NCBI GenBank assembly: GCA_032158295.1
Contig: CM063246.1
Coordinates: forward strand, 12,959,608 to 13,023,607
DNA length: 64,000 nucleotides
Direction: 5' to 3'
Source of the DNA: Pycnopodia helianthoides
Taxonomy: Eukaryota; Echinodermata; Asteroidea; Forcipulatida; Asteriidae
Shown: piece by piece, positions 1,605 to 50,384 of the stretch
How the letters are laid out: the number at the start of each line of letters is the position of its first letter
Numbering within the stretch: position 1 is the stretch's first letter
Notes under the pieces: generated by a model
Told to the model about the DNA's origin: nothing
The model's database searches: none
The model's input: only the letters and a program-made list of their open reading frames with translations
Program-made: the position numbers and the translations under genes

Positions 1605-3934
1605 GGTGGGATTAGAACGAGAGGTTTTATATTTCAAACTGCTTTCATTATTAAGTAGCTTAATGTATCCAACATCCTTTGATGTATCTACAAACAACAT
1701 CATCTAGCGGCTCTACACTCGACAAGCTGTGCTTTTAATGGGCCCCTTCCACTTCCCAGCTTTGTCAGAATTTTTTTTCTCTTCTTTTCCACTGCATTAT
1801 GTATTTAAATTTCCATTTTCTCTATGTACATAATGTTTACATTTCATTTGGATTTGAAAATAAAAATTGGTCAACGATAATAATTTTTGGTTGAACAAAG
1901 AAAAATTGGCTACAGCAGGTTTTGAACCAAAGACCTCCGAATTAATGTGCCGGCATTCTACCAACTGAGCCATCCAGCCCTATGTTGGCAGTTTCCCTAA
2001 TATTTGTCAATATCTTTGTTTAGTAATAATAAAGATAATGTGTAAGCAGGGGCTCCATCTGCCCTGTACTAACAGAAGATGATTTTCATAATGGATTAAT
2101 ATAACTTGATGTCTCTATGTATAGCAGACTAAAAGGAATTGAAAACTGGGCGGGAGAGTGAAGATCCCAGCTGCAAGATTCTCCAAGCCGCTGTAATCAG
2201 ATTTTAATTGAACACCAGTGGCTGTATTAGTACATGTAGTCACTGGAACATATTGACATTAGGCTGTATGTAAGCAATGCATGATAATGTAGCGTGTACA
2301 TTGCACCTAGACAATAATGTACCGTACCAGCACTGACTGTAAGGTATAAATTCACAAGTGAGTTACTTGTAAGAAACAACTGAAATATTCAGATATTGCA
2401 GTAACGAACGTAGGAAAATAAAAACATGCGGTTTCATCTTGAAGGATTATGTTTCGATGTCGTCGTGAACGCCACATTTAGTACATGATGCAAAATATTC
2501 GCCACTACTTTTTTAGTAGTCGTGGCGGCGAGGTTGACTGGGTAGTTGAAAAGCGGGCATTTGTTTTCTCCTGTACAAAGAGGGTCAGAAGATACTAGAA
2601 TCTGTACTTGTAACCTCCCTTTTTCCATGTAATCCCCGATTCCTGACCTTTGCCCTTTTGTTATACATACATTTTGTGGCTCATAGGGAAGATGTAAGTC
2701 TGTGCATTCCGAGATTCAAGCATGGCAGATTATTGGCCATGGCTTATACTGCCGAGGTTTTGCGATTCACAGCGAACGCATATTATCTCACAAGAGAGCA
2801 ACAAATCCTGGTGCTTATTATGAGAACCGTTGTTGTCTTTCCTTTGTCAAGTCGGGGTTTCGTTTTAAAATGATATTTTCAAAGGAAAATTTTTACTCAA
2901 GAAGAAGCTCCAAAAAGCTCTGAAACTAATACCATGCCAAGGCACAGAATTTTACTGACCCAAAATGGTTAACTATTTTTTGAGAACTGCCTGATTTTGG
3001 TGTGGGGCGTCACATATTCTACTAATAAATGTTGTTTTAGTTTTGTGTAGCAATTACAAAAAATGCGAGCAACAACATGATTACAAAACCAACAACAAAA
3101 ACAGAACATTCTGAGACCAGTTTGATATTCCAACAACTTTCTTGGCTAGTTTCTTCCCACTCGTGAATAAGTGTCTGTAAACTCAAACATAGACTACGCA
3201 TGGTTACTATAGAAACTTGATATCCATAGCAACCCCAATTTGGTGAGAGAATGTTATCTCAAGAAATAACAGAAATAATAAAAATCCCCAACCAGAAGGG
3301 ATGCAAACCTCTTTTTGATCAGATTATCGTTGGCAAATCAACATGCATACTTTCCGTCCTGTCAGCGTCAGTTTTCTACAGCCCAATGTGCATTAATAAA
3401 TGCTTGTAGGTGAGGAATAGCTCAGACCTTGAGTGAGTGTTTTTTCAATTTACCTGTTTACCGTTGCTCTGCACACATGGCAACTATGGGATCTTTCCCA
3501 GCATATATAACTCCTTTTACTTTACGTATCCAAACTTCAATTAAAAACGATCGACAGAATAAGTGATGTCTGCTCTATTTATGGAGTCTGATAGATTAGA
3601 GGTGGGTGCGCCTTGCAAATGTCTTACAAGCAAAACGCGGGTTTTTTCCTGAATTTAACTTGGATTAGCTCTGCAAGAAAATATTTGACCTGAAACTTTA
3701 ACACTTTTGTCATTTTCTTTTGAAAAAGATTAGCAAAAGGAATTTATTCTCTACAGTAAAGTAACAAAATAAAAGAAGAAAATACAGACATGCATGGAGC
3801 TTTTCCCAGATTAATACTTTTTTGCAATTGCAACAAATCATTCTGCAGATTCATCTAAAAATAATAGCAGACGGTATCTTAAAAGGACATCCACAACAAG
3901 GTTTTCATAAATATTTGGCTATGTCTTACTTAAA
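1605..3934. other. No gene seen
   Basis: AT-rich non-coding DNA apart from the SINE fragment at 1880-1990. Frames up to 73 residues (2658-2923) have no splice context or recognisable motif. GCTCATAGGGAAGATG and GATTCACAGCGAACGC near 2680-2780 resemble 31080-31130 (GATGTTTTGCTGTTCACAATGCGCG), so an old dispersed repeat may be present. Confidence 0.5.
1880..1990 (-). mobile_element. SINE family 1 fragment
   Basis: On the minus strand: GGGCTGGATGGCTCAGTTGG, then GTCTTTGGTTCAAAACCTGC and TTTTTCTTTGTTCAACC. Head and start of the body only. Confidence 0.75.
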
Positions 3935-4080
3935 TAACCTTAACACTAGCCTGGTGTCATTTTCTAGTAAACACCACTTCTCAACTTGCCCTGTGGGCTA
4001 CTAACAATTGTGCAACCTACTTGTTTAAAATACTCATATAAATTTCTTTCTTTTCAGATGTGAATAATAAACTAAATAAT
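3935..4080. repeat. Direct repeat, copy 1
   Basis: CTTAACACTAGCCTGG, AACACCACTTCTCAACTTGC and TGTGCAACCTACTTGTTTAA recur in the same order at 4247-4400, about 310 bp further on. Confidence 0.8.
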
Positions 4081-4246
4081 AAAAAATACAGTATGTTATT
4101 TTCTATTTTTGATAGTGTAAACTGGTTTTGACCACTACCATCAGAAAGATACATTGATGACAATAAATGTTCAAACTACATGCAAATGGCTGACTGTGCA
4201 AAGGGTGAATAGGATTCATCAATTTCAATGTATCATCTCAGGGCTC

Positions 4247-4605
4247 GCCCTTAACACTAGCCCGGCGTACATTGTCTAGTAAAAAATGCTATGGGCTAGT
4301 AAACACCACTTCTCAACTTGCCCTGTGGGCTACTAAAAACTGTGCAACCTACTTGTTTAAAATGCTAATTTCTTCCTTTTTCGAATGTGAATAATTAATG
4401 TATAAAATGTGTTAATCGTTATTGAGTGTGTGAATTTAACTTCATTTGATCATTACACTGTTAGTAAGTGATCGTAACATTAACACATCAAAACATTACA
4501 TTTATGGCAATTCCTGTGTAAAAATCTGGGCTACTTAAACTTCCTGGGGGCAAGTAAAATGCTAAGTTTACTGGCCCGGCGGGCTACTTTACAAAAAGGT
4601 TAGGC
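4247..4605. repeat. Direct repeat, copy 2, within a longer element
   Basis: The copy of 3935-4080 begins a longer piece that ends CTGGCCCGGCGGGCTACTTT. The left GCCCTTAACACTAGCCCGG and the right GGCGCAAGGC look like imperfect inverted ends, so copy 1 may be a truncated relative of this element. Confidence 0.65.
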
Positions 4606-5239
4606 GCAAGGCCTGCATCTTGAAAAGATGATAAACAGGTTGGGGCAAGCAGGATGTACATGTATGCATTGTGGTTTGCTTTACTTCCAATCAAATTCTC
4701 AACATCAATAGAACGGTGTGTTTTGTCTCCAGCCTTTTCAAAAGAATTACCGTTGACTAATGCATGAAGACCAGGGTTACAGACGCACACACCACAGTGC
4801 ATTAAGGCAATATTGCAAGGCGAGACTAAAGTGGGAAAAATTAATCAGTCGTACAAAAATGTGATGTCCTGTGATTTTTACACAAACAGAGTCGCCCGCC
4901 AAAAAACAATCAAGCGTGTAGTTCTTCAGCTAAAGGGAACCATATGTACATCATTGTTTTTTTTGGAAGAGCAAATGAATTCATGACTTCTAGTTTTTTT
5001 TAATCAACATACAACCGACCTGTGAACATTGGATCAAATTCAGTGGTCATAGTTTGACTGTCAAAATAACGGTTCATTGTTTTGTCAGGGATTTGTTGCA
5101 CGCTCGAACCGCAATCAAAACAAGCATTAGTGATTTTTTGTCTTGCTTATGTGTGGGATGACATGCTTCCGAGCAATCAGTAATTTAGTTTATATTTTTG
5201 TTGTCCCTGACCTGCATAGTATTGTAAAGATCTTTTTTT

Positions 5240-5945: not shown

Positions 5946-7053
5946 CATGGAGCTGTTTACTGGTCGAAACATTTTGTGAAAACTATCTGCCGTCTGTGAC
6001 ACGTATGACGCATTTTTCCCCCGTCATTGGACAATTTATTTTAATAATTTTTTTAACCATCTCAGCTCTCTGGGGAGTATACAACCCGTGCTGCTATTTA
6101 AGTACAATAGCGCACCAAGCTAAATCAATCACACTCTGCCCTCACAGGTGCCCATTTACTTCCAAGTTTAGAGAAGCAATTACAGTTAAGTGTCTGGTTC
6201 AAAACGAAAATGTAATGACTGGAATTCAAACCAACACCCTGATGAATTAACCACCAGAACTTGAGTCAGGTTCACTAGATCGCTTAGTTATAACAAGCTA
6301 AAAATTGTGAAACTGCTAAACATTGTTCGCTCTGCTGAGATAGTACAGAATTTCCTGTTGTAAATTATGATGTGAATTTGTTATTAGTTTTCACTATTAA
6401 TAAAAAAGCCAACAAAGAACAAAAACAATACATTGATTATTTGATGCTACAGTATGATTCGACTGTATTGATTAAATCCATTTTCAATGCAACTGCAGCA
6501 ATTCAACACTAAATTGATTGAACCCTGACCCCAACAATCAAATTTTGCCTGTAATTATGAGAAAAAGAAAAAGAAGAAAAAAGATTAAGAAATCTTTCAA
6601 ATTGTGTGGGGGGAAAGCCAGTGCAATGATAACAACCCATAGGTCTGCCGTATATATACGGCGGCAGCGCACGCAAAAGCTGTTATCAAACTGTAGCGAG
6701 CTGATAGCCTGGTAGCCACTCAATCACACACCGCGCGAGACAGCTCAAGTGGGCACTTCTCAACATTGCATTAAGAGGCTCTTTCCTCAATGTCTTCCCT
6801 GGTCCCAGTGCGAGGTCTTCTCTTGAAAAAACCCAGGGTAAACATCTGACTGGTGTTTACACATGGTGGCCAATTATGTGGGTACATTGTACTATAAAGA
6901 TGGTTAGGGGCCATTCAGAATAATCATTGTTTAAAAATGTCAATGTTTTGTAATAACTGTGGCTGGGTGGGTAAAAAATAAAAAATAAATAAATGATATA
7001 AATCCACTTTTCAATTCAAATAATAGAAGGGAACTGTGTGTGCGGTTCCGTTG
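5946..7053. other. No gene seen
   Basis: No exon-like segment with flanking splice sites was found. An A-rich purine run lies at 6558-6600 and a palindromic CCGTATATATACGG at 6648-6661. Confidence 0.5.
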
Positions 7054-7380
7054 TTAACACGTTGACTGCCGCCTACGAGTATATTCGTAGTAACAGGTGT
7101 AACGGATTCTGCCACTACGAGTATACTCGTAGAGAATGAAAGGCTTTTGTATAGTGAATTGAATACACTGGCATCACTGAGAACGCAACGTACACGCTTC
7201 TGGCAGTGGTGAGCACACATCGTTAAAATTTGTATGCTACAACATGTTGACAAAAAAAAAAGTACCTATTTGGTATGCACGCATGCGCACCACACTGGTA
7301 TGCACGCATGCGCACCACACTGGGATGCCTGGCAAATGGGAACGCCCCTTCAAATTTATGACCGGCAGTCAACGTGTTAA
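7054..7380. mobile_element. TTAA-flanked MITE, piggyBac-like ends
   Basis: Begins TTAACACGTTGACTGCCG and ends CGGCAGTCAACGTGTTAA, perfect 18-bp inverted ends including TTAA on both sides. Inside are two CTACGAGTATAYTCGTAG palindromes and a direct duplication of TATGCACGCATGCGCACC. A partial copy lies at 58768-58868. Confidence 0.85.
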
Positions 7381-7529
7381 TGGTCAACCTTGTTTCAAAA
7401 GTCGACCTCCGAGCCCGATGGTGGGGGGGGGGGGGAATGGTGAGGATTTTCTTTTTGGTTTCAATTAAAAAAGTTGCATGCTGAAAGCCAGGAAAAGCCA
7501 TTGAAAACTCAGCTGGGAGAACATTTGTT

Positions 7530-7843
7530 AAAAATATCTTATTGTTACAAAATGTATATGGTTAGAAAGATGTTTTAAAAGTACATGTAGAATACAATGA
7601 TCCACAAAATATGCCTCGAAATTGCGTGGTTTTCGTTTTACATCGTGTACTAACACAATCGGCCATTTTATGGAGTCAAACCTTTGACTCCACAAAATGG
7701 CCGACCGTGTAAGTTTGCAAAGTTCAAGGAAAACCACGCAATTTCGAGGCATATTTGTAAGGATCATTATATTCTACTTTTAAAACATCTTTCTAACCAT
7801 ATGCATTTTACAACAAACTGTAACAAACGCTATTTATAGACCA
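7530..7843. mobile_element. Foldback MITE, family A, with right end split by the minisatellite
   Basis: Two inverted arms meet at 7675-7685 (GGAGTCAAACC/TTTGACTCC). Left arm: ATATGGTTAGAAAGATGTTT to ATGCCTCGAAATTGCGTGG. Right arm: CCACGCAATTTCGAGGCAT to CATCTTTCTAACCATATGC. The full-length relative at 15599-15986 continues from TATAGACCAACTCG straight to ATCCAAGGCAACGCG; here those parts are separated by the whole tandem array. The outer left terminus expected near 7500 is not recognisable. Confidence 0.85.
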
Positions 7844-8711
7844 ACTTGTACACATACAAACTCGTACATATACAAACTCGTACACATACAATCTACAATA
7901 AACTGTCACATACAACTCGTACAATCAACTTGTACACAAAAACTTGTACACAACTCGTACACCAACTCGTACACCAACTCGACCAACCCCTACACGACTG
8001 TACACCAACTTGTACACATACAAACTCAGAAACCAACTCGTACACATACAAACTCAGAAACCAACTTGTACACCAACTCGTACACATACAAACTCGTACA
8101 CCGACTCGTACACCGACTCGTACACCAACTCGTACACCAACTCGTACACCAACTCGTACACCAACTCGTACACCAACTCGTACACATACAAACTCGTACA
8201 CCAACTCGTACACATACAAACTCGTACACCAATCTTTACACATACAAACTCGTACACCGACTCGTACACCAACTCGTACACCAACTTGTACACCAACTCA
8301 GATCACCAACTCGTACACCAACCCCTACACCAACTGGTACACCAACTCGTACACCAACTGGTACACCAACCCCTACACCAACTGGTACACCAACTCGTAC
8401 ACCAACTCGTAACACCAACCCCTACACCAACTCTTACACCAACTGTACACCAACTCGTACACCAACCCCTACACCAACTGGTACACCAACTCGTACACCA
8501 ACCCTACACCAACTCGTACACCAACTCTTACACCAACCCTACACCAACGGTACACCAACTCGTACACCAACTCGTACACCAACCGTACACCAACTCGGTA
8601 CACCAACCCTACACCAACTGGTACCCAACTGGTACACCAACTGTACACCAACCTCGTACACCAACTCGTACACCAACTCGTACACCAACCCCTACACCAA
8701 CTGGTACACCA
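7838..8711. repeat. 12-bp minisatellite array, segment 1
   Basis: Tandem copies of ACTCGTACACCA, mixed with a 16-bp variant ACTCGTACACATACAA and 12-bp variants carrying CCCCTACACCA or ACTGGTACACCA. It starts directly after the MITE arm sequence TTTATAGACCAACT. The unit has no stop codon in any of the six frames, so long ORFs rich in [20 protein letters not shown] or SWCT cover it; these are not genes. From about 8400 many units have single-base gains or losses. Confidence 0.97.
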
Positions 8712-8925
8712 ACTCGCTTCACTTCAACACATTACACATTACATTAACTCAACTAGGGATTCAGGTCAAATCAGTTTGTGATACCGATTATGCCAAACAG
8801 GCCCACTATGAAATGGTGAAAGTGGACAACATATTACAAACTCTTGTCTCATGATAAGGTGTTGATCAACAACTACACCAAAACACCAATGAACAATCAA
8901 CATTTGACAAGGGTTGTAAAACTCG
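8712..8925. repeat. Diverged, truncated copy of the array spacer
   Basis: It matches the inner part of the spacer at 11829-12036 (CTTCACTTCAACACATTACA, then GATACCGATTATGCCAAAC, then CCACTATGAAATGGTGAAAG) with many small differences. It lacks the first 200 bases of that spacer and is followed by GGGTTGTAAAACTCGTACAC, where the 12-bp array restarts exactly as it does at 12037. Confidence 0.85.
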
Positions 8926-11620
8926 TACACCGACCCCACAAAATGGTACACCAACTGTACACCCTTTTATACGCCAACCCTACACCAATGGTCACCAAAC
9001 AGTAAACAACCTACACAACTCTAACCACAAACTGTACACAATACACCAAGGTACCCAAATGGATACAACCAAGTCGTACTCCAATCTAAACCAACCTACA
9101 CCAATGGTTACACCAACTGGTACACCAACCCCTACACCAACTGGTACACCAACTCGTACACCAACCAACTCTACACCAACCCTACACCAACTCGTAAACC
9201 AACTTTACACCAACCCCTACACCAACTGGTACACCAACTCGTAAACCAACTCGTACACCAACTCGTACACCAACCCTACACCAACTCGTACACCAACTCG
9301 TACACCTACTCGTACACCAACTCGTACACCAACTTGTACACCAACCCGTACACCAACTCGATACACCAACTCGTACACCAACTCGTACACCAACTGGTAC
9401 AACTCATGTACACCAACCCTACACCAACTCGTACACAACTCGTACACCAACTCATACACCAACTCGTACACCAACTCGTACACCAACTGGTACACCAACC
9501 CGTACACCAACTCGTACACCAACGGTACCAACTCGTACACCATCTTGTACACCAACTCGTACACATACAAACCGTAAACCAACTTGACACAAACTCGTAC
9601 ACCAACCCTACACCAACTCAAACCAACTCGTACACCAACTCGTACACCAACTCGTACACCAACTTGTACACCAACTCTACACAACTCGTACACCAACTGG
9701 TACACCAACTCGTACACCAACCCCTACACCAACTCGTACACCAACTCGTACACCAACTCATACACCAACTCATACACCAACTCGTACACCAACTCGTACA
9801 CCAACTGGTACACCAACCCCTACACCAACTGGTACACCAACTGGTACCAACTGTGACACCAACTCGTACACAACAACTCGTAAACCAACTTGTACACCAA
9901 CTCGTACACCAACCCGTACACCAACCCCGTACACCAACCGTACACCAACTCGTACACCAACTCGTACACCAACTCGTACACCAACTCGTACACCAACTCG
10001 TACACCAACTCGTACACCAACTCGGACACCAACTCGTACACCAACTCGTACACCAACTCGTACACCAATGTACACCAACTTTGTTACACCAACTCGTACA
10101 CCAACTTGTACACATACAAACTCGTGTACAAACTCAGTACACCAATCTTTACACTACAAACTCGTACACTAACTCGTACACCAATACGTACACCAACTCG
10201 TACACCAACTCGTACACCAACTCGTACACCACACACTCGTACACCAACCTCGTACACCAACTCTTACACCAACTCGTACACCAAACTCGTACCACCAAAC
10301 TCGTACACCAACTCGTACACCAACCCTACACCAACTGGTACACCAACCATCCACCAATGGTACTTTTTCCAACTCAGTACCCCCTAATCAAACTAACCTT
10401 TCACCAACTGTACACACAACTATACACCATACATTTCACAATAGTACAGCAAATGGTACAACCCAATCGTACACCAACTGCTACTACCAACCCCTCACAC
10501 CATACTGTACATAACTTTACACCTACTCGGTCAACAATCTCGTACTACCATATTGTACACCAAGCCCTACCCAAAATGGAACACCAATGTACACAACTCG
10601 TTACACCAATAGGTATCAACCAACACATAACACCAAACTAGTCACCATTACTGGGTTACAAAGAACAACACAACCAAATCCTTCCTAACTGGTTCCAATT
10701 CGTTAATCCAACTTCTGTACACCAACTCGTTACATTACAATGTAAACCATTATTGACACAACCGTCACAACCCGTTCACCAATGAAACCAACTGTACAAT
10801 AATCTTACACCATTATGGTTACACCAATCTTACACCAACTCTTCATCAACTCTACTCTCAAACTGGTACACCAACTCGTACACCAACCCCTACACCAACT
10901 CGTACACCAACTCGTACACCAACTCATACACCAACTCATACACCAACTCGTACACCAACTCGTACACCAACTGGTACACCAACCCCTACACCAACTGGTA
11001 CACCAACTGGTACCAACTCGTACACCAACTCGTACACATACAAACTCGTAAACCAACTTGACACCAACTCGTACACCAACCCGTACACCAACCCGTACAC
11101 CAACTCGTACACCAACTCGTACACCAACTCGTACACCAACTCGTACACCAACTCGTACACCAACTCTTACACCAACTCGGACACCAACTCGTACACCAAC
11201 TCGTACACCAACTCGTACACCAACTCGTACACCAACTCGTACACCAACTCGTACACCAACTTGTACACATACAAACTCGTGTACAAACTCATACACCAAT
11301 CTTTACACATACAAACTCGTACACTAACTCGTACACCAACTCGTACACCAACTCGTACACCAACTCGTACACCAACTCGTACACCAACTCGTACACCAAC
11401 TCGTACACCAACTCGTACACCAACTCGTACACCAAATAGTACACCAACTCAGACACCAACTCGTACACCTACTCGTACACCATCTTGTACACCAACTCGT
11501 ACACAAACAAACTCGTACACCAACTCGTACACCAACTCGTACACATACAAACTCGTACACATACAAACTCGACACCAACTTGTACACATACAAACTCGTA
11601 CACCAACTCGTACACCAACT
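8926..11620. repeat. 12-bp minisatellite array, segment 2
   Basis: Same 12-bp family as segment 1. Units from 8926 to about 10380 carry frequent one-base indels. From about 10380 to 10860 the repeat is so decayed that only scattered TACACCAA words remain. From 10860 to 11620 the units are clean. Variant-unit order (CCCCTACACCA, ACTCATACACCA pairs, ACTGGTACCAACTCG, then the 16-bp type) recurs as higher-order blocks shared with segment 3. Confidence 0.95.
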
Positions 11621-12036
11621 CGATCCAAGGCAATGTGTACCTTTAATTGTCAAATGAAGAACCAAGCACAAAAAAACAAACTAACACATTTCACAAATTT
11701 ATTATTCACATCTAAAAAGGAGGAAATATGAGCATTTTTCAACAAGTAAGTTGAACAGAGAAGAAGTGTTTACTATAGCCCGTAGTGCAGTTTTCTACTA
11801 GACTGGCTAGTGTTAACACAGATTCCTGCCTTCACTTCAACACATTACACATGTACATGTAACTTTAAAGAGAGGCTTCAAGGTCAAATTCAGTTTGTGA
11901 TACCGATTATTGCAAACAGAGCCCACTATGAAATGGTGAAAGTAGACAAATATTACAAATCTCTTGCCTGGTGTAAGGTGTTTGATCAACAACAACAAAA
12001 CACCAAAATGAAGTCACATTTGAATAGGGTTGTAAA
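11621..12036. repeat. Array spacer, copy B (about 415 bp)
   Basis: Non-tandem DNA between array segments. It opens with CGATCCAAGGCAATGTGTAC, which matches the outer end of the MITE right arm (compare 15961-15984), and continues with flanking DNA of the original insertion. It is repeated almost exactly at 13692-14109, offset 2071 bp. It ends GGGTTGTAAA, directly followed by ACTCGTACACC. Confidence 0.93.
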
Positions 12037-13691
12037 ACTCGTACACCAACCCCTACACCAACTGGTACACCAACTCGTACACCAACTCGTACACCAACCC
12101 CTACACCAACTGGTACACCAACTCGTACACCAACCCCTACACCAACTCGTACACCAACTCGTACACCAACCCCTACACCAACTGGTACACCAACTGGTAC
12201 ACCAACTCGTACACCAACTCGTACACCAACCCCTACACCAACTGGTACACCAACTGGTACACCAACCCCTACACCAACTGGTACACCAACTCGTACACCA
12301 ACTCATACACCAACCCCTACACCAACTCGTACACCAACTCATACACCAACCCCTACACCAACTGGTACACCAACTGGTACACCAACTGGTACACCAACTC
12401 GTACACCAACCCCTACACCAACTGGTACACCAACTCGTACACCAACCCCTACACCAACTCGTACACCAACTCGTACACCAACCCCTACACCAACTGGTAC
12501 ACCAACTCGTACACCAACTCGTACACCAACTGGTACACCAACTGGTACACCAACCCCTACACCAACTCGTACACCAACTCGTACACCAACTCATACACCA
12601 ACTCGTACACCAACTCGTACACCAACTGGTACACCAACCCCTACACCAACTCGTACACCAACTGGTACCAACTCGTACACCAACTCGTACACATACAAAC
12701 TCGTAAACCAACTTGACACCAACTCGTACACCAACCCGTACACCAACTCGTAAACCAACTCGTACACCAACTCGTACACCAACTCGTACACCAACTCTTA
12801 CACCAACTCTTACACCAACTCGTACACCAACTGGTCGTCAACTCGTACACCAACCCCTACACCAACTCGTACACCAACTCGTACACCAACTCATACACCA
12901 ACTCATACACCAACTCGTACACCAACTCGTACACCAACTGGTACACCAACCCCTACACCAACTGGTACACCAACTGGTACCAACTCGTACACCAACTTGT
13001 ACACCAACTCGTACACATACAAACTCGTAAACCAACTTGACACCAACTCGTACACCAACCTGTACACCAACCCGTAAACCAACTCGTACACCAACTCGTA
13101 CACCAACTCGTACACCAACTCGTACACCAACTCGTACACCAACTCGGACACCAACTCGTACACCAACTCGTACACCAACTCGTACACCAACTCGTACACC
13201 AACTCGTACACCAACTCGTACACCAACTTGTACACATACAAACTCGTGTACAAACTCATACACCAATCTTTACACATACAAACTCGTACACTAACTCGTA
13301 CACCAACTCGTACACCAACTCGTACACCAACTCGTACACCAACTCGTACACCAACTCGTACACCAACTCGTACACCAACTTGTACACATACAAACTCGTG
13401 TACAAACTCATACACCAATCTTTACACATACAAACTCGTAAACTAACTCGTACACCAACTCGTACACCAACTCGTACACCAACTCGTACACCAACTCGTA
13501 CACCAACTCGTACACCAACTCGTACACCAAATAGTACACCAACTCGTACACCTACTCGTACACCATCTTGTACACCAACTCGTACACAAACAAACTCGTA
13601 CTCCAACTCGTACACATACAAACTCGTACACATACAAACTCGACACCAACTTGTACACATACAAACTCGTACACCAACTCGTACACCAACT
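12037..13691. repeat. 12-bp minisatellite array, segment 3
   Basis: The cleanest array segment. Its first 600 bp alternate units with CCCC, CTGG and CTCG cores, giving 24-bp and 36-bp patterns. At 13235-13450 a block of about 152 bp containing CTCGTGTACAAACTCATAC is directly duplicated. Its last 160 bp match the end of segment 2 at 11434-11620, including the odd units CACCAAATAGTACACC and CACCATCTTGTACACC. Confidence 0.96.
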
Positions 13692-14109
13692 CGATCCAAG
13701 GCAATGTGTACCTTTAATTGTCAAATGAAGAACCAAGCACTAAAAAACAAACTAACACATTTCACAAATTTATTATTCACATCTAAAAAGGAGGAAATAT
13801 GAGCATTTTTCAACAAGTAAGTTGAACAGAGAAGAAGTGTTTACTATAGCCCGTAGTGCAGTTTTCTACTAGACTGGCTAGTGTTAACACAGATTCCTGC
13901 CTTCACTTCAACACATTACACATGTACATGTAACTTTAAAGAGAGGCTTCAAGGTCAAATTCAGTTTGTGATACCGATTATTGCAAACAGAGCCCACTAT
14001 GAAATGGTGAAAGTGGACAAATATTACAAATCTCTTGCCTCTCATTGATAAGGTGTTTGATCAACAACAACAAAACACCAAAATTAAGTCACATTTGAAT
14101 AGGGTTGTA
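13692..14109. repeat. Array spacer, copy C, joining the unique flank
   Basis: Near-identical copy of 11621-12036. It differs at its end: after GGGTTGTAAA the sequence runs into ATTTTGTATAAG instead of the 12-bp array. This copy therefore looks like the ancestral right flank, and copies A and B like duplicates. Confidence 0.93.
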
Positions 14110-14651
14110 AATTTTGTATAAGTTTAAAAAAAATCCATTCCTGAATTTGTATGTTCTATTTTTATATCAAAACCACATTTCCCTTGACCAACACAAATTT
14201 CCTGTGTTGAATGTACATGTACAGACTCATTTTTTTATTGACAGTGAAGCCATGTTTCAAATTTCACACTGAAAGAATATCGATTACAAATAAATTTAAA
14301 ACCATTTATGATGAGGTTAGAGACTGCAATAATGTTTACACTTTAATTTTTATTATCTATCAGAAAATGAGTGCATAACAAAACAACATTTGACCTTAGA
14401 GTCCCCCTTTAGAGCAAGTCAAATTCTTAACAAGGATAAAACAAAAAATAAACATTTTGTTCTTGGAAGAGTGAAGTCGTTTCCTTCATTTTGTTTTCAA
14501 CAAACAAGCCTTCCAACCATTCCATGAATATTTCACATCAAGGTTTACGTCTGTTTCTGTTTATGTGTATGACAGACCACAATGTACATGAAGGGGAATG
14601 TTATTTTGATTGGAGTAAATCGTGACTTTTGTAATATAATTCAGATGGTGT
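14110..14651. other. No feature seen
   Basis: Unique AT-rich flank to the right of the tandem array. No ORF above 60 codons and no inverted ends were noticed. Confidence 0.6.
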
Positions 14652-15035
14652 TTAAAGGCAGGGTAAACTTTGAGTTAATTGTCAAAGACCAGTATCCACG
14701 CTTGGTGTACATGTATGCCTAGCGGAACAAACCTGTAAAAAGTTGGGCTCAGTTGGTCATTGAAGTTGCAAGAAAATAATGACAGAAAAGAAAACACCCT
14801 TGTTGCATAGAATTGTTTACTTTCAGATGCCTGAGAAAGCCTCATGCCTGAAGCCTTTCTCAGATTTGAAGGTTTGGGTGAAAAATTATTTCTTTCTCTA
14901 AAACTACATTACTTCAAGGAGGGATGTTTCTAATAACACTTTAAAATATCAACAGCTCTCCAGTGCTCTTTACCAAGTAAGTTTTTATAGTCGTTAACTT
15001 ATGGAGTAATAACCAAAAGTATACCCTGCCTTTAA
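14652..15035. mobile_element. MITE family D
   Basis: Ends TTAAAGGCAGGGTAAACTTT and AAAGTATACCCTGCCTTTAA, TTAA borders, no ORF. The interior includes GAAGCCTTTCTCAGATTTG. Relatives at 31455-31813 and 28494-28874. Confidence 0.84.
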
Positions 15036-15598: not shown

Positions 15599-15986
15599 TT
15601 AAAGGTACACGTTGCCTTGAATCGGCCGAGTTGGTCTATAAAAAGCGTTTGTAAACCGTTTGTTATAAAATGCATATGGTTAGAGAGGTGTTTTAAAAGT
15701 AGAATACAATGATCCATACAAATATGCCTCGAAATTGCGTGGTTTTCCTTTAACATCGTGAACTAACACAGTCGGCCATTTTATGGAGTCAAACTTTTGA
15801 CTCCACAAAATGGTCGACCGTGTTAGTTCGCAAAGTTCACGGAAAACCACGCAATTTTGAGGCATATTTGTGTGGATCGTTGTATTCTACTTTTAAAACA
15901 TCTTTCTAACCATGCATTTTATAACAACAATTACAAACGCTTTTTATAGACCAACTCGACCGATCCAAGGCAACGCGTACCTTTAA
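15599..15986. mobile_element. Foldback MITE, family A, complete copy
   Basis: Starts TTAAAGGTACACGTTGCC and ends GGCAACGCGTACCTTTAA. Arms of about 180 bp are inverted copies meeting near 15793. Both ends carry TTAA followed by AGG, consistent with a TTAA target duplication (piggyBac- or Kolobok-type transposases). No coding capacity. Confidence 0.88.
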
Positions 15987-16719: not shown

Positions 16720-17112
16720 CATGGAATCACCCATTCACCCATGGATTTACCTATGGAATTACCCATAGAATCACCAATGGAATCACCACAGCCCCTTGAT
16801 CACCCATGGAATAACCCATGGCCCCTCGTTCACCCACGGAATCACCCATGGAATCACCAATGGAATCACCCATGGCCCCTTGATCACCCATTGAATAACC
16901 CATGGAATAACCCATTGATTCACCTACGGAATCACCCATGGAATCACCGCGGTCCCTTGATCACCCATCGTGCCCATGGAATCACCACAGCCCCTTGATC
17001 ACCCATGGGATAACCCTTGGCCCCTCGTTCACCCATGGAATCACCAATGGAATCACCCATGGCCCCTTGATCACCTATGGCCCCTAGATCACCCATGGAA
17101 TCACCCATATGC
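16720..17112. repeat. Second 12-bp minisatellite (GGAATCACCCAT)
   Basis: Tandem GGAATCACCCAT units with variants (GAATAACCCAT, GGAATCACCAAT) interrupted at intervals by an 18-bp unit GGCCCCTTGATCACCCAT, giving a longer repeated pattern. Open frames here (rich in HPWN or MGDS) are repeat artefacts. Confidence 0.9.
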
Positions 17113-19779: not shown

Positions 19780-22700
19780 TTCCCATTTGCCTGTCGCCCT
19801 CGCTTGACTCATCATTCCAATCAGGATATTCAGGTCGTGGTTCATGTCATTGTTTTCGTCCCGCAACGCTTCGCTTTCCTCTGTCTGCCGATCAAAACGA
19901 TGCTGTACATCCTGAGATGACATTACAAAACAACAGATGGAAGAAGATATGGTTTTAAAGTGATGTTTGAAGCTTTGCATGGTGTGTTTTGACCCCATTA
20001 CAAAATACAGAACGCGTCTCCGAACAATGTGCGTCTACCATTTCCACAACTTTGGGAGTTAATCTCTCTGTTTAAATTTTGTCTACTTAAAATAATGGTA
20101 GACAGGATGGGAGTGTGTAAGTGCACTGCGCATGGGATCAGTAATAAGATGTAATTAATACAAACAAAACTTAAGGTTTTTGAATAATACCAAAACTTGT
20201 CTTTAATTTAAAAATTATGTTCAAATGTTGACTTAGTGTCTGATAAATACTCACAAAGTACGAGTAAAAATATTTTTCAGACCCTCAACAAAAAAAACCT
20301 ACAAAACTCTGGGACCTGGGGCAAATTTTACAATGAGCTAAAATTGATCTTAATTGTGTATCAATCTTAATAGCTAAGCAAAGTGTGATGCCACAACACA
20401 AATCACTTGGCAATATTGACATCTTAACATCTTTTAAATGAATCTAAGTGCTTTGTGAAACCCAGCCCAGATCCCCCTCCGAGTTAAATGGAATGGTCCA
20501 GTATTGGAAATCAAAGACTTTTACTCCCCCAGGGAATTGCACTTCGGAGAAAACAGTGAAATAAACAAAATGTGCCATGGTTTACAACTCTGAACACTAA
20601 AGGGCTTCAAGGGTCAAATTAAGTTACTGTGATCTCCTCATTTGAAATGTGACATCATCAAACGATTTTTGGATTTTGTCAAAAATTGCACAAAAAGGGT
20701 ATCAAACACAGTGGCATTTTACACCATTTTAACGGGAGTTTGGAGAAAATGTTCATTTTTTCCCCTTCTTTCATGAGGACTCTCTCTATTGGAAAATGAG
20801 TGCATCACAAAGCTGAATTTGACCTTGAAGACCATCTGTAATGTAATTTGTTGATTTTGCATCCTGTTAATCCATTACGAGATGCAAAAACAAAACACAC
20901 ACAACAGGAGTAACAGACAGCTGAAAGAATAAGTCTGTGCCTTAATGCCAGAATTCTTAAACATTTCATGTTTTGATGTCAAGGAATTTGTTCATGCCAG
21001 GCTTGCATGTATTTTGATTTTGGCAATCCAAACAAGCAACAGTAATTTTGCGGGTCTTCAAATTTTATTTTCTTGACTTTGACTGAACTTCCTACAGAAA
21101 CGTTTTAAAGGGAAACATTGTCTTATGAAATTAATATGGTTGGAAAGAAGTTTTAAAGGTAGGATACAAAGATTCACAACAACGTCCCTCAAAAATGTGT
21201 GGTTTTCCTTTGACTTTGCGAACTAACACAGTCTTCCATTTTTTACTCCACAAAATTACTGTGTTAGTTCAGGAAGTAAAAAGGAAAACCACAACATTTC
21301 GAGGGATACTTTTAAAACATCTTTCCAACCATATCAATTTCATAACAAATGCTTTTTTAGCCCAAAGCGCCCAATCCGAAGTCAATGTGTCCCTTTAACT
21401 GAACCTGATTTTTTATAACAATCCAGTTTTTGTCTTTTCAAAAACATTGCAAATTATACTTACATGGAGGGTTTGCTCTGTGTTCTGCTTCTGTATCGTT
21501 ACCAGTCGCAGCTCGTGTTCGACGTCTCTGCATTTGATAGTAATGTCCTGGAAAATTCAAAAAGAATTAGAAAAAACGATTAGCAAAATTCTTTTCAAAT
21601 TTTTTGGCCTGTCCTTGTTGGTGCTTTTGAACGCTTCTATTCTGCTCTGAAATTGAATACAGGCCTGGGGTCAATTTCACAAAACTCTTCCTAACTTAGG
21701 ACTAGTCCTAGACAATGCTAACAGATAGGACTAGTCCTAAGTTAGGACCAGTACTTAGGACTAGTCCTATCTCTTAGCATTGCCTAGGACTAGTCCTAAG
21801 TTAGGAAGAGTTTTGTAAAATTGACCCCCGGTACTTCACGGGGCCAATGTAGGCGATTGCCCCTGAACATTGCCTTAGTGCCCTTTGAAATTTGTCCTCA
21901 GAAATGTTAATTTCACAAGCACTGAGGTACCCTTTACTGAGAACCTGCCTTACACTTTGAATGAATGAACTTTCAGGCCTTTGAAAGTATAGACCTTTCC
22001 ATTGCAATGTCACAGCCTGAAATTTTGCCAACCAAGGTTGGACATTAGTTATGGGAAGCCATAAATGCAAAGCAAAAATAGATAGCTACCCTACGGCTAT
22101 TATTTTACACAAGTATTCCAAAATACTAGGCCTATTGAATTTGTTAGAAACACAGCAACTAATCATGGGATGTATTCTTTTGATTAAAAGTTTGCAGAAA
22201 TGTTAAATTTGGTCACAACATCTGTCAACATGATTGAATGTTTTCCTAACCTTCGGCTGTCCATGCCAACCAGCGCAGTTTGTTTATCGACAATGGAAAG
22301 GTCTATCATTTTCAGAAAATAGGAATTAATGTAGTCTTAAAATAAAAGAAGTAAAAATGTGTATTTTTGTTTGTGGAATAAGGCGGGTAATAAAACATAT
22401 TGCAATACAGTAATCTAGACAGTAAGCTCAATGGAAGAGATAGTGGTATTTATCTGCCTATTGAAGTGGTCACCATGTTGACTTGTGTTGTGGTCAGTAA
22501 TTGGCAGGGAGACCATTCCATGTATTATCATGGTTGATACATAAAGTAGCTTGTCTGGGACATGGGCTCCCTAACATTATAGAGCAAAGAACAGACAACA
22601 AGCTTGGATGGGACGGGTACAAAATGAAGGTCCTGTGCATTGTGCAAGCATGTGAAACACCCAGGAGTCGATGTTCCTTGCTCCGTGATTTCACAAAGCA

Positions 22701-28104: not shown

Positions 28105-28495
28105 CTCGTACTCCAGACCTGGTACTTGATCAGCAATTTCACGTTTTCCTTTTCTTATTAGCATTACGGTAATTTTTGGTGTCCATTGTGAAGTTTTACC
28201 TTGCCTGATGCTTCTGTTTTTATCCCTTTTATTCCCTGTGCAATTTTTACTAAATTATTTCAATTTTTCTATTGTACATAAAATATTTATTTTTAGTAAC
28301 ACTATGTTATGTAATAGCCAGTAGCATTGGAAACGAAGGCCCTCGGGCCACAGTTATTAGGTTAACTTTTTCTCTTCCTGGCATGTGCTGCTGGCTCTAT
28401 TGTATGTTCCTTTGTCATTTTATTCATTGTCTTCACTGTTTGTTTTATTGTATTGTGAATTATGCCGAATAAATAATAATAATAATAATAATAGT
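28105..28495 (+). mobile_element. Possible LINE 3' end with (TAA)n tail
   Basis: Non-coding sequence ending GAATTATGCCGAATAAATAATAA... Similar ends (GAATAAA followed by (TAA)n) are seen at 5240-5535 and 42960-43125. Poly(A)-like signal plus microsatellite tail is typical of LINE 3' termini, but no reverse transcriptase frame is present. Confidence 0.4.
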
Positions 28496-28874
28496 GGACA
28501 CTATTGGTAACTACTCAAAAATAATTATTAGCATAAAACCTTACTTGGTAACGAGTAATGGGGAGAGGTTTGACAGTATAAAACATTGTGAGAAACGGCT
28601 CCCTCTGAAGTGACATAGTTTTCGAGAAAGAAGTAATTTTCCACGAATTTGATTTTGAGACCTCAGAATTAGAATTTGAGGTCTCGAAATCAACCACCTA
28701 AAAGCACACAACTTCGTGCGACAAGGGTGTTTTTTTCTTTCATAGTTATCTCGCAACTTTGACGACCAATTGAGCTCAAGTTTTTACAGGTTTGTTATTT
28801 TATCCATAATGTTGAGATACACCAAGTGAGAAGACTGGTCTTTGACAATTACCAAAGGTGTCCAGTGTCTTTAA
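28494..28874. mobile_element. MITE related to family D
   Basis: Left part AGTGGACACTATTGGTAAC and right part TTACCAAAGGTGTCCAGTGT are imperfect inverted repeats; the interior includes GAGACCTCAGAATTAG and its complement-like GAGGTCTCGAAATC. It ends CTTTAA; the left TTAA is absent. Confidence 0.7.
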
Positions 28875-28875
28875 A

Positions 28876-31454: not shown

Positions 31455-31813
31455 TTAAAGGAAGGGTATACCTTTGGTCATTACTCCAAAAATTAGTGAC
31501 CACAAAAGCAATACTTGGTAAGAAGTACTGCAGCTATTGATAATGTATAACATTTTGAGAAAAGATTCCCTTCTAAGAAATGTGGTTTTAGAGAAAGAAA
31601 TTTTTTTTAAAGTCAATCTGAAAAATGTTTCATGCATGAAACAGTTCTCAAATTGTGTGGACATAACGGCTCCAGATTTTCGGGGATATCTCAAAAACAC
31701 TATCACCTTTTGAAATTAAATTTTCACAGGTTAGTTTTATTGTGTATATGTACATTTATATAGGATTAAACAATCAAACGCTTCCAAAGACCAAAGGTAT
31801 ACTTTGCCTTCAA
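31455..31813. mobile_element. MITE family D, just past the PEPD stop
   Basis: Starts TTAAAGGAAGGGTATACCTT and ends AAAGGTATACTTTGCCTTCA. It lies about 150 bp beyond the PEPD stop codon, so it is either inside or immediately after the PEPD 3' untranslated region. A TTTTATT at 31734 (AATAAAA on the minus strand) inside it could act as the poly(A) signal; that is speculative. Confidence 0.8.
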
Positions 31814-34900: not shown

Positions 34901-37900
34901 TCCCAAAAGAGATTTACACATGTTGTACCCGCAAGTTTACTAGTAATAGTTACTTCCTACTTCCTATACTGTTTGGAGGATTTTAAACTTCGCGTGGTGG
35001 AGATCCAATCTAGTACATGTAGAAAGGTTTACGGTAACACCATCTACATGAAAATAATCTTTCAATGAGATGTTGTGATTCTGAAAAGAACCCTCGGTGT
35101 AACTCCGTGTTTGCATTTGGCTGTTGTCAAAGACCAACATCGACACTAGCCCACATAAAACAACAAACCTGTAAAAGTTTAAGCTACATTGGTCGCCAGA
35201 GTCACAACCAAAAATTAAAAAAAATAACAAAATAAAGCAAAATTCAATGCTTTACTTTTGTCAAACATCAGGTTTTAGTCTCGCGAGATCAAAACAACTT
35301 GTTTTACTAATTTCTCTAAAACTAAAGTATTTAAAGCAGAAATCGTTCATGGAAGTTTTCCGCCATGACCATCTATACACCATGTAACTTCTCTACAAAT
35401 CCAGAACACTTACATTTGGGTCTTCTCAATGTTACTCTCCTCAGTACAAGCCAGTTTCATAATTTATTCATTTTTTAGCACTTACATTGGGTCTTCTCAA
35501 TGTTACTTCCTCAGTACAAGCCATATCATGATTTATTCATTTTTTAGCCTGGTTAGAGTAGACATAAAATAACTTGAATGGCTTCTGACTGGCACCGAAC
35601 AAAGATATTGACGAACAAGATATGACAAACTAGGGAGACCGCCAACATTAGAGCTGGATAGCTCAGTTGGTAGAGCGCCAGCAAGTTGGTTTGGAGGTCG
35701 CAGGTTCAAATCCGCTCTTGTCAATTATTCCTTGTTCAACCCAAAATTATTTTAAAAAATTCACCCAGGCAGTTTCCCTTGTGGCTTATTACTTAATATA
35801 AAATAACTTGAAATGATCAATTTGAAGGCAAATTACCAAATGTCTCCATCCAGGATCTGGCGGTTATTTGGAGCTCCAGCATGGCCATAGTGAAGCACTG
35901 ATGCATTGATACCACTGGAAAGAAAATTTGACAAGAAAACACACAAAAAACACAATAATAATCACTCATTTAATTTATAACTAGTTTGGGCGTTCAGGTT
36001 GGCAGAGTGGTTTCTTTCCCTGCCTTTCACCTCTGTGGACCCAAGTTCGAATCCTGCCCTGACCGAAGCCTTACATGGGGATTGGGTTTTTCAGTACTTA
36101 ACCAATCATGTGGGCTTTTTCCAGTTTAGTTTTTCCTTCCACATGTAAAAATAGGATATCTTCCCCAGGTAACTTTAGGCCTATGGGTTACAATGCTGGG
36201 TTTCTTAACAATATTTCTGATAAACTAGTTATACAGATTTCAAAGTTGTTATTGAGCTTGTATTGTTATCATGTTAAATTTTGATTTTGTTTTATTTGTA
36301 AAAAAAATAATAATAAATTCTAACTCATGTAACATTTGATCAGGGATAAAGAATATTATTTTTGTTTTACCCATGTTCTTATGCATGCTAAGCGCTTTTC
36401 CCCCGAGTGCTGTACAAAAGAATCCAACAAGCTACTTGGGTGGGATTCAAACCTACAGTGTTTTCTGGGGGACTTAGAAAACACAGAATATACTGTGCTT
36501 ACCACATATCAGTGTAAAGGTATAACAAGAGTGTCAAATTCTTTTAGGGTAACCGCCAAAGATTGAATTTGTCTTACCTTGCACAGATACAGGTGTAAGC
36601 CACTCTGCGACATCCTCCATGGTAGTACACATGATGTTGGAATGTACTATAAAAAGAAAATACACAATAACCATTTATTACGGCTTGTTAATAAATTCAA
36701 CAACCGGCCGTCTGTCAACTGTTTGTAGTAAGTTCAACCAAACAAGAAGACAACGTCCGCTGCTCAGCTTAAAGATCGGGAAGGCAAGAAAAAGCTAGTT
36801 GTCTGATTCTTATGAAGGGCCTATAACAATTTGTTTTATGTATGACATTGCATAGGGCTTCTAATTGTACTTTTGGGACTTAATATAGTTTCAGCTTAAC
36901 GTTAATTTAGTGTTTATTTTGTTTAATATTTAGAACTTAAGAAACAGGAGAGTTGCTACCCATGACCCTACATTTATTTGAGAGAGTGACATTTGCATTC
37001 TGCTAAGCAGGAAATCATTGGCTCTACACGTTCATTTTGGAAGGGAAACTTCTTCACAAGAACATCTTGAAACGGCACTAGCACCATGAACGGTGACAAT
37101 GGCAATGACCTTGTTTGTCAAATCAAAACACTGTGGGAGACCTCACCGGGTAATTTTCTATTTTTTTTACGCAGGTCTGAGCATGCGCACAATTCAGAGA
37201 ACAATGTCTTTAACTATTGTATTAAATCTGCTGCCAGTAGCTTCCCTGACAGTTTCCTACATGTTCGGTAGTCAGCGAATCAGGAAAAGGAACCAGCTAA
37301 TCACCTCTCTAGCTGGTACTCCTGCATGCCCGGCCTGACCTTCTTCATGACCTCTTTGTGTGCCTCACAGCTGACCAGACAGACATAGCGCAAAATCTCA
37401 AGCTCACCTGGACTCTTGAAGACTCGACTGAAATGAAACAGGAGCAACAAAAAACAATATCAGTTAAGGATTTACATTGTATTTACGGGGTGTGTAATAC
37501 CTATGATATTTGATCTGATGAAAGACTGGGATGGCAGAAAACTTTCAGACAAGTAACTCTTCCTCTTTTACAGAAAGTTATTTAGGTTAAAATATTGGAC
37601 TCAAGTGTGAAATCCAATCATCATAGTTGCTTCTAGGTACGAGCCTTTTGTTGATGAGACAAAAATTTAGTCCCAAGTCATCAAAACCGTGCCTTGAGTC
37701 AAATTTAAGTTTACTGATGCTGTTGCTACTGGTCTTGGCCTTGCTGCCCCTTCAAGATATTCCAACAGACTAAGAATTTCTGATGAAAGGCCTTGTCTCC
37801 TTCCAAGATGAATTTCTAGACCAGACTTATTTCTTGATAATAAAAGGAAAAAGCATGGATCACATCAGGACAGCCTGATTTATTTATTAATGTTCCTTTT

Positions 37901-48611: not shown

Positions 48612-50384
48612 TTTGATTTTGTTTTCGCTGATCAAAAATCTCCTGAAGAACCACACAAGGCAGCGGGCACCAATTCAACTCCAACACCCCGCAGTGGCGA
48701 ACTAGATCTGTCCTATTGTGATTCTCTGCAGCAGCACACCTTACTCTATGAGCACACGTACACATACACACACACACAGTACACACGGGCGACGACCAAA
48801 TAAAAACCCAACAGCACGTCACATGTATATCATGTGATTAATCTCATGTTCACGAGATCGATTGATATCGCGTTGACGCGATCTAGGGGGGAGGTCACAC
48901 ACGTACACGTAGACGGTGGACGTACGGGTCACGAAGGGTCGTCGTCGGTGGTTGTACCAGGTGAATATTTTGCCGATTGTTCTCGTTTTGTTTTCTTTCA
49001 TGCACAGCGCTATTCTCCCGTAAAGCTATGTTGATAAACCACTTAAATTATAAATGGTGCAGTAAATTGTCTTCCAGGGAATTTACAAGTTCCAACGTCA
49101 CCGGCTACCGCTAAACTGCTGGGTGCTGCTAGTAAAAAATGAAAAAGTAGTACTCTGTCCTTTAAATAACCTAATGCTAGAACACCATGGAGCTATTAAA
49201 CTTAAAGTAAACAACGACTAAGAAAAAATGTCGTATCCAACTGCGATCCCTGCCCGATCCTAGGTCAAATTCTATCCTTACCTGTCGAGAAAGGTTAAAT
49301 TGATACAGCCAGGAACAGGCAATTTGGACCCGCAAAAAATCTTTATTAGTGGTTCAAGATTCAGTTTAAGTTCTCAAACTCATGCTGTTACACTTCAGCA
49401 TCTGGTTTTGAAAAGAGCAGTGTCCAAGTACTACTGTCATGACTGTACTACAGTACTACTAGTAGTACAAGCAAGGTTGAAAAAAGTGTTTTTGTTACTC
49501 CAGGCCAGGAACCACACGGAGGCCAAGGCCTCTGTTGCCCCTGGTCTAGGCATTGGTGCCCCTTCCAGGGCCCAATTTCATAGAGCTGCTTTTAAAAGCA
49601 GAAAATATTGCTGAACAATTGCCTGCTAAGCAGAAATGAGCAGGATACCAGTCACAAATTGTACATGTGGTATGGTAGTTTGGCTGGTAACCTTATTCTG
49701 GTAAGCGTAATTTTTGTTGTGCTTAGCTACTTCTTGTGCTTAAGCAGCTCTATGAAATTGGGCTCAGAGTTTAACATGACCCATGGATTTCCAATAGAAC
49801 TGCCCTTTGCAAAATGAAAACGGCATTGCCCTCTCAAAGGAGAAATTCCAGGCCTGTAGTGTTTTAAAATAGACCCCACTTACAACATTAATAAGAGTTC
49901 TTAACAAGGTCATATAAATAAGGGTCATTCAATGCCAAATCACCTAAAAGTCTGAAAAGTATATCTTATCTCCGTTTGTAGATATTTGTAAGCCTCTAAA
50001 AATGGCCCCCAAACACAAAAAAACAATTTGAATTGAAGGGGCGGGGCTTAATTTTTTAGGGGTTATATATCTTAGAAATGTTAAGGAGTAGGACTCTAAA
50101 AATGTTGTGTTATAATGGCATCCAGGGATTGTTTTGTTTTTTCAAATTTGCAAAATCTGATATGGAGCCTACCAAACTTTTCAGAATTTTTGGTGATTTG
50201 GCATGGAATGACCCCTATGTTGCAACTATTTTAAATTTATGTAATTTTCTTAGTTTTCTATGATATTTGTTATTAAAACACTGCACACTTTACTTAGCTA
50301 GGATTATTGAGTTGACATGTAATTGCACTTGGTTTCTTCTACTTTCCAGTGATTACTAGCAAGCTGTGACCTTTGTTGGGAACC
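48612..50384. promoter_or_regulatory. Divergent PEPD-MAO intergenic region with CpG-rich core
   Basis: This 1.77-kb interval separates the two divergent start codons. From about 48830 to 48960 it is much richer in CpG than its surroundings (GATCGATTG, CGCGTTGACGCGATC, GTCGTCGTCGG), as expected of an unmethylated animal promoter. A possible donor CAG/gtgaat near 48960 and the acceptor at 50349 could define a 5' non-coding MAO exon. No convincing TATA box was seen. The interval 49494-49857 is transposon sequence. Promoter activity is inference from base composition and position. Confidence 0.45.
49494..49857. mobile_element. Family F element interrupted by a family E MITE
   Basis: The outer element (GAGGCCAAGGCCTCTGTTGC ... 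GCCCTTTGCAAAATGAAAAC) is also found uninterrupted at 62890-63045 and in part at 17895-18005. Here it is split by a complete family E element at 49567-49765. The nesting shows that family F arrived first. Confidence 0.75.

Follow-up and report, generated by a model that had tools for sequence, protein, structure and literature searches.

We argue that the best explanation of the 12-bp minisatellite found in the 64-kb stretch of Pycnopodia helianthoides DNA analysed here (hereafter the window) is that it was seeded inside the right terminal inverted repeat (TIR) of a foldback MITE, and we consider this origin probable. The array begins against the right arm of one copy of the element and ends against a right tip. 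We favor seeding in the TIR because both borders are adjoining pieces of one TIR, standing in their original order and sharing a single unit phase. An intact TIR of the same family lies within about 8 kb of the split one, and the two form a readable before-and-after pair, which makes it possible to describe the putative seeding to the base: 4 bp lost and a 12-bp unit gained.

The reference for the unsplit TIR is a copy at 15599-15986 that carries no array (this and all other features of the array and of the element family, here called family A, are on the forward strand). Its 388 bp align with their reverse complement at 88% identity, in 391 columns (blastn), and it is predicted to fold at -171.5 kcal/mol (z -35.8, 100 shuffles) into a near-perfect single long hairpin with the TIR at its base. 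Its end order is TATAG-ACCAACTCG-ACCG-ATCCAAGG and onward, with the right end reading TATAG-ACCAACTCG-ACCG-ATCCAAGGCAACGCGTACCTTTAA in its longer form, and the outermost bases (TTAAAGG...CCTTTAA) are compatible with a TTAA target site, though the TIR itself may hold the TTAA. An older, diverged copy at 21113-21398, recognized from 67-68% identity (blastn) and from reading the sequence, is likewise free of an array. With the copy at 7542-7842 the window thus holds three members of family A, one with an array and two without, and the family has the properties by which MITEs are defined, being short and non-coding, with terminal inverted repeats and several copies (three in the window). Neither a MITE core pattern nor a TIR pattern had a match in a collection of viral contigs, and the TIR pattern also had none in a collection of genome contigs, collections in which sea stars would not be expected; four strings of MITE or unit sequence that were sought in print were not found in the literature searched.

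In the array-bearing copy the TIR is split at one point, and the 4-bp spacer ACCG is the sole loss. On the left, TATAG-ACCAACTTG (from 7835) runs into 12-bp units; on the right, ATCCAAGGCAATGTGTACCTTTAA comes after the last unit, ACCAACTCG, and the array-bearing end as a whole reads TATAG-ACCAACTTG-(12-bp units)-ACCAACTCG-ATCCAAGG and onward. The unit is in phase with the TIR on both sides, with one mismatch (T for C) at the left border. A preliminary description had taken the left border for the right arm of a foldback MITE, and we agree: TATAGACCAACTTG starts at 7835 and closes the right arm of the element at 7542-7842, which matches the intact copy at 86% and 89% identity in two blastn rows and gives a hairpin fold with z -23.6 (100 shuffles). 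Its observation that the two border pieces are contiguous in the intact relative at 15599-15986 is also borne out by reading the sequence. The final border described there, ACCAACTCGATCCAAGG, is present as well, but it occurs twice, starting at 11614 and again at 13685, rather than once.

The unit itself points to the same place in the element, as nine of its 12 bp are identical to the TIR at the breakpoint and in phase; ACCAACTCGTAC and ACCAACTCGACC, the element's own sequence, differ at two positions, just as had been stated before. For the unit's TAC, the intact TIR offers no match at this position, and a derivation from GTAC, which occurs close to the TIR tip, was rejected, 4-5 bp being too little for a claim. 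A 9-bp match somewhere in the element is weak evidence and by itself not striking: when exact matches to any rotation of the unit were sought anywhere in the 388-bp element, matches of at least 9 bp occurred in 72 of 2000 resampled elements, and elsewhere in the window, away from array and MITEs, matches to the unit reach up to 10 bp. What is striking is that the word stands at the breakpoint and in phase, the chance of the 9-bp word at one fixed place being about 3e-6 (from base frequencies, and reckoned after the fact). The array shows two features of a TIR-born satellite, namely a unit apparently derived from the TIR of the element, with one mismatch in the first unit on the left, and a long array between parts of the element, with about 5.2 kb between MITE arm and MITE tip, a length that is unreliable for the reasons given below.

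Tandem Repeats Finder reports a period of 12 over 7913-13693 with 473.6 copies, 74% matches and 11% indels, spacers included. Sequence reading and alignment to the unit resolve this span into three blocks, separated by copies of the DNA that lies to the right of the element. The first block (block A, 7843-8712; delimited by reading, Tandem Repeats Finder and a unit profile) contains 12-bp and 16-bp units and has a degenerate left edge, its first bases, ACCAACTTG (7840-7848), being common to the block and the MITE arm. The second (block B, 8921-11613; unit profile, collinear with the third) includes noisy stretches at about 8921-9140 and 10343-10850, and the third (block C, 12036-13684; unit profile) is the cleanest, differing from the unit over 12043-12642 by 44 substitutions and no indels. 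Together the blocks amount to about 5.2 kb (5230 bp with slightly wider ends) or about 436 units, a figure obtained as 5230 bp / 12 and not by direct count; 271 units fit strict patterns. The preliminary description had placed a 5.5-kb array at 7530..14109 and put its expansion at 450-fold. The array is real, but it consists of three blocks, and 14109 is approximately the end of the last flank copy; neither figure should be relied on, since the noisy stretches make the length doubtful.

The commonest unit, ACCAACTCGTAC, is present in 151 exact copies in the array; ACCAACCCCTAC and ACCAACTGGTAC are frequent variants, a 16-bp form, ACATACAAACTCGTAC, also occurs, and CCCCT and CTGGT variants are mixed in. 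It had been asked whether the satellite is found at sites without a family A end; within the 64-kb window, to which this search was confined, no unit was seen outside the array (ACCAACTCGTAC, 0 copies; on the other strand, GTACGAGTTGG and GTGTACGAGTTG, 0 each). A search of the viral contig collection with two array units retrieved one stretch (L001), which is a short GTTGGTGTA-type repeat within other sequence and was judged by eye to be a coincidence. The array was also considered as coding sequence and rejected: stop-free frames reach 538 codons because the 12-bp unit has no stops, and one frame of 241 codons is without a Pfam match. As to secondary structure, the minus strand of 12040-12240, the stretch that was folded, is not unusually structured, being equalled or surpassed by 196 of 200 shuffles. 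Most likely, then, the array is without function. A second minisatellite, at 16720-17105 and about 730 bp to the right of the intact MITE, is also built on a 12-bp repeat (CATGGAATCACC) and shows longer periods as well, from 18 to 54 bp; its unit looks unrelated to that of the array at 7843-13684.

The DNA separating the blocks bears on how the array grew. The MITE right tip, ACCAACTCG-ATCCAAGGCAATGTGTACCTTTAA, occurs at 11614-11646 and a second time at 13685-13717, and behind each tip lies a flank copy of about 400 bp: f2 at 11647-12035, which in part belongs to an unrelated dispersed repeat, homologous to 4340-4455 and to 4009-4071, and f3 at 13718-14112, which continues into the sequence to the right of the array (blastn). 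These two are 97.9% identical, with 5 mismatches and 2 gap openings (blastn). A third copy, f1 (8717-8920), is partial, indel-rich and without a MITE tip, and is about 85% identical to both f2 and f3. Because the tip is present twice with the same flank behind each, array, tip and flank appear to have been duplicated as a unit of about 2.07 kb. The right end of f2 joins the array directly, at a junction that lies in clean sequence (about 12028-12040), and this clean junction together with the near identity of f2 and f3 makes it probable that at least one such duplication is real, unless f2 and f3, which diverge by about 2% and may be paralogues or alleles, are the latter. Two exact repeats, one of 273 bp (offset 2071) and one of 246 bp (offset 1967), fit this duplication of array, tip and flank, and the repeats found at offsets of 1967-2119 and 3122-3133 would agree with growth by unequal exchange or replication slippage. 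Expansion of the unit, as previously proposed, does not by itself account for a segment of about 2.07 kb, with a MITE tip and some 400 bp of foreign flank, that is present twice.

Homology of the flank to the dispersed repeat reaches the TTTAA of the MITE tip, so that the right MITE end appears to mark a genuine insertion into it; two partial copies of a dispersed repeat related to this host are present at 4009-4640. The left side is different. The outer 60 bp or so of the left TIR of the array-bearing copy at 7542-7842, a feature defined by blastn and hairpin fold, are undetectable: a degenerate left TIR at about 7455-7545 is tempting by eye, but the best alignment of the intact left tip is equalled by 168 of 1000 shuffles, and three alternative versions of the left end there are equalled by 722, 294 and 473 of 1000. 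A continuation of the host repeat into the left flank was likewise rejected, 60 of 500 shuffles being as good, and the best blastn match of 6900-7560 to the host repeat has E 0.14 among the matches listed. With the left tip undetectable and the left flank not continuing the host repeat, the two MITE halves could stem from two elements rather than from a single insertion. Loss of DNA on that side would explain both observations, and so would two elements. One may imagine that family A inserted here twice, independently, or that a rearrangement brought two of its copies together, and that an unrelated minisatellite arose between the two or was captured there. Such a history leaves the in-phase repetition of 9 bp at the TIR split unexplained, however, and requires extra events, and we think it quite unlikely. 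The earlier proposal of seeding in a transposon end fits the borders better than the rivals tested, and supposes that a single insertion supplied both halves. Farther to the left, a short element at 7054-7380 has perfect 18-bp inverted ends (TTAACACGTTGACTGCCG) and holds a 25-bp tandem duplication at 7271-7328.

The length of the array is a separate matter, for parts of it may be a product of the assembly. Alignment places 8717-10345 collinear with 11830-13481, and 10343-11640 collinear with 12262-13711. Measured in steps of 100 bases as matches over columns, identity in the first pair is 88, 82, 79 and 78%, then 83-100% until the last full step, which falls to 75% at 10217, leaving a noisy right end. 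In the second pair, whose first step was omitted for its end gap, identity is 77, 73, 60 and 80%, then 88-100% bar two steps of 69 and 61%, in which gaps make up 44 and 60 columns and mismatches 1 and 3. Base-level noise therefore peaks where the left-hand members start, and the later differences are mainly gaps of whole units; around 8717-9140 and 10343-10850 one finds, with many indels, sequence that recurs in cleaner form farther to the right. The contrast is plain when each is compared with the unit, as 10343-10842 shows 80 substitutions and 67 indels vs the 44 and 0 of the clean part of block C.

The partial flank copy f1 shows the same excess of indels, its alignment with f2 having 14 mismatches and 15 gap openings and that with f3 having 15 and 14 (blastn). 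In six chosen rows between dispersed copies in the window the corresponding counts are 262:52 (Fisher p 4.5e-5 for f2 and 1.9e-4 for f3); left out of these six were most inverted matches, the reverse duplicates, the tip rows, the f2/f3 rows, four famB rows and the rows for 4071 and 20851. If self matches and rows with f1 are set aside, the remaining 30 rows together give 780:134 (p 5.2e-6 and 2.8e-5), and 14 non-redundant rows, one per pair of places, give 443:77 (p 8.4e-6 and 4.3e-5), with the proviso for all of these tests that neither alignment rows nor columns are independent. The noisy stretches resemble poorly corrected long reads or contig ends placed side by side, and poor polishing or misjoined haplotypes are likely to lie behind them. 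That the several blocks and much of their length arose because haplotypes of differing array length, or poorly polished contig ends, were set in tandem, such that the real array is shorter, seems to us about as likely as not. The two collinear pairs, with mismatches densest at their left starts, the indel excess of f1 and the noise at 10343-10842 are what such a product would leave behind; the clean junction between flank and array and the few differences between f2 and f3 are not, and there is no simple left-end pattern, given that gaps the size of a unit set the later parts apart as well and that noise also marks the right end of the first stretch. An assembly product would in any case be compatible with the other explanations, as it bears on length and leaves the TIR borders unaffected; what the noisy, doubtful stretches do mean is that array length and copy number are unreliable.

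With this in mind, seeding in the TIR would have proceeded as follows, the order of events being our reconstruction. First, a foldback MITE of family A would have landed in an older dispersed repeat of the sea-star genome. Slippage or template switching within its right TIR would then have duplicated ACCAACTCG, with the copy plus three bases (TAC) taking the place of the 4-bp spacer ACCG, yielding in essence TATAG-ACCAACTCG-(TACACCAACTCG)n-ATCCAAGG. Long hairpin structures can stall replication, and the long hairpin of the element perhaps helped with this first duplication. The array would subsequently have grown by unequal exchange, and on at least one occasion array, MITE tip and about 400 bp of flank would have been duplicated together as the unit of about 2.07 kb, moving the array beyond the element; this last step supposes that the two tip copies are not alleles. 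Seeding in the TIR gains support from the lack of units elsewhere in the window and from the two array-less copies among three, a comparison based on three family A copies that all lie within the window. Counted against it are the undetectable left tip, the first left unit, ACCAACTTG, which is one base off, and the unmatched TAC.

The array might instead have been born elsewhere, in a MITE subfamily that already carried it in its TIR, and have jumped in with its bearer. Foldback elements with tandem repeats in their TIRs do exist (Tetris and Galileo), and the right end resembles a true insertion end. On the other hand, the other two copies in the window have no array, the array is present at one end only, the left tip is undetectable and a long insert in one TIR is expected to hinder transposition, all of which renders a mobile array-bearing subfamily unlikely. 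If seeding in the TIR is accepted, one may go further and suppose that a satellite has been caught at birth at a single site, where the terminal repeat of a MITE gave rise to a 12-bp array that then absorbed the tip and about 400 bp of flank as a higher-order unit of 2.07 kb. We put this forward tentatively and consider it doubtful rather than probable. Were it true, neighboring unrelated DNA would have been drafted into satellite DNA; and if the larger blocks are real, an array can leave its parent element and pull flanking DNA into a higher-order repeat. Otherwise, the locus would stand as a further example, from a sea star, of a known satellite route and as a caution on array lengths in assemblies.

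Foldback (TU) elements of sea urchins contain short tandem repeats in their inverted repeats, and the sea-star element is likened to them as an echinoderm foldback by description, not by sequence. Satellites born from TIRs are already known from Tetris in flies and Xstir in frogs, and by analogy the sea-star array would be another case. The earlier view that seeding in the TIR followed by expansion to kilobases is unusual was accordingly overstated, since TIR tandem repeats reaching long satellite arrays appear in published work (PMC4079207, PMC12628747, PMC9659126). Tetris, or TIR-220, of Drosophila virilis and D. americana is described there as a non-autonomous foldback-type element with a tandem repeat in its TIRs, in which a 37-bp stretch is common with the outer TIR and may be its duplicate; it forms satellite-like arrays, for which unequal crossing-over was suggested, with units of about 220 bp, 610 repeats on 69 contigs and arrays of at most 66 copies (PMC4079207, which also mentions sea-urchin foldbacks). 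The sea-star locus resembles it in being a foldback element with a TIR-borne tandem repeat grown long, and differs in that its unit is 12 bp and was seen at one locus and one end only, whereas Tetris units of about 220 bp occur in many places.

Xstir, a set of tandem repeats grown from a MITE in Xenopus, is similar in that respect and differs in unit and host animals. The literature names as its source either the TIR, in a table (PMC9659126), or internal MITE sequence (PMC12628747, PMC2872659); a stem-loop mechanism during replication has been proposed for it, and TIRs are among the satellite sources listed (both PMC12628747). Galileo of Drosophila also has tandem repeats inside a TIR, which expand and contract independently in the two TIRs; its repeats are about 210 bp and number two or three copies, compared with our 12-bp array, and its family includes transposase-coding relatives (PMC3573991). 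For echinoderms, including sea stars, no TIR-born satellite was found in a literature search among the matches listed, which covered few subscription papers.

The remainder of the window is animal DNA with 38.7% G+C. A second foldback-type element, at 14652-15035, has inverted ends of 26 bp (88%); relatives of it that have diverged lie at 28493-28875 and 31455-31650, and weaker ones elsewhere in the window. A monoamine oxidase gene is located at about 50376-63243 on the forward strand. A partial query stitched from its exons matches Asterias rubens best, at 69% identity across 64% of its length, followed by Patiria miniata and Acanthaster planci among the best 120 of 2190 matches. In turn, 15 stretches of the window can be aligned with the Asterias protein, most of them (13) at 75-94% identity and the other two at 53% and 63%. 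This single gene thus marks the genome as that of a sea star closer to Asterias than to Patiria, and the identities make it probable that the species is not A. rubens, unless the matched protein is a paralogue. Finally, a tRNA-like match at 35652-35723 lies barely over the Rfam threshold (30.4 vs 29 bits).
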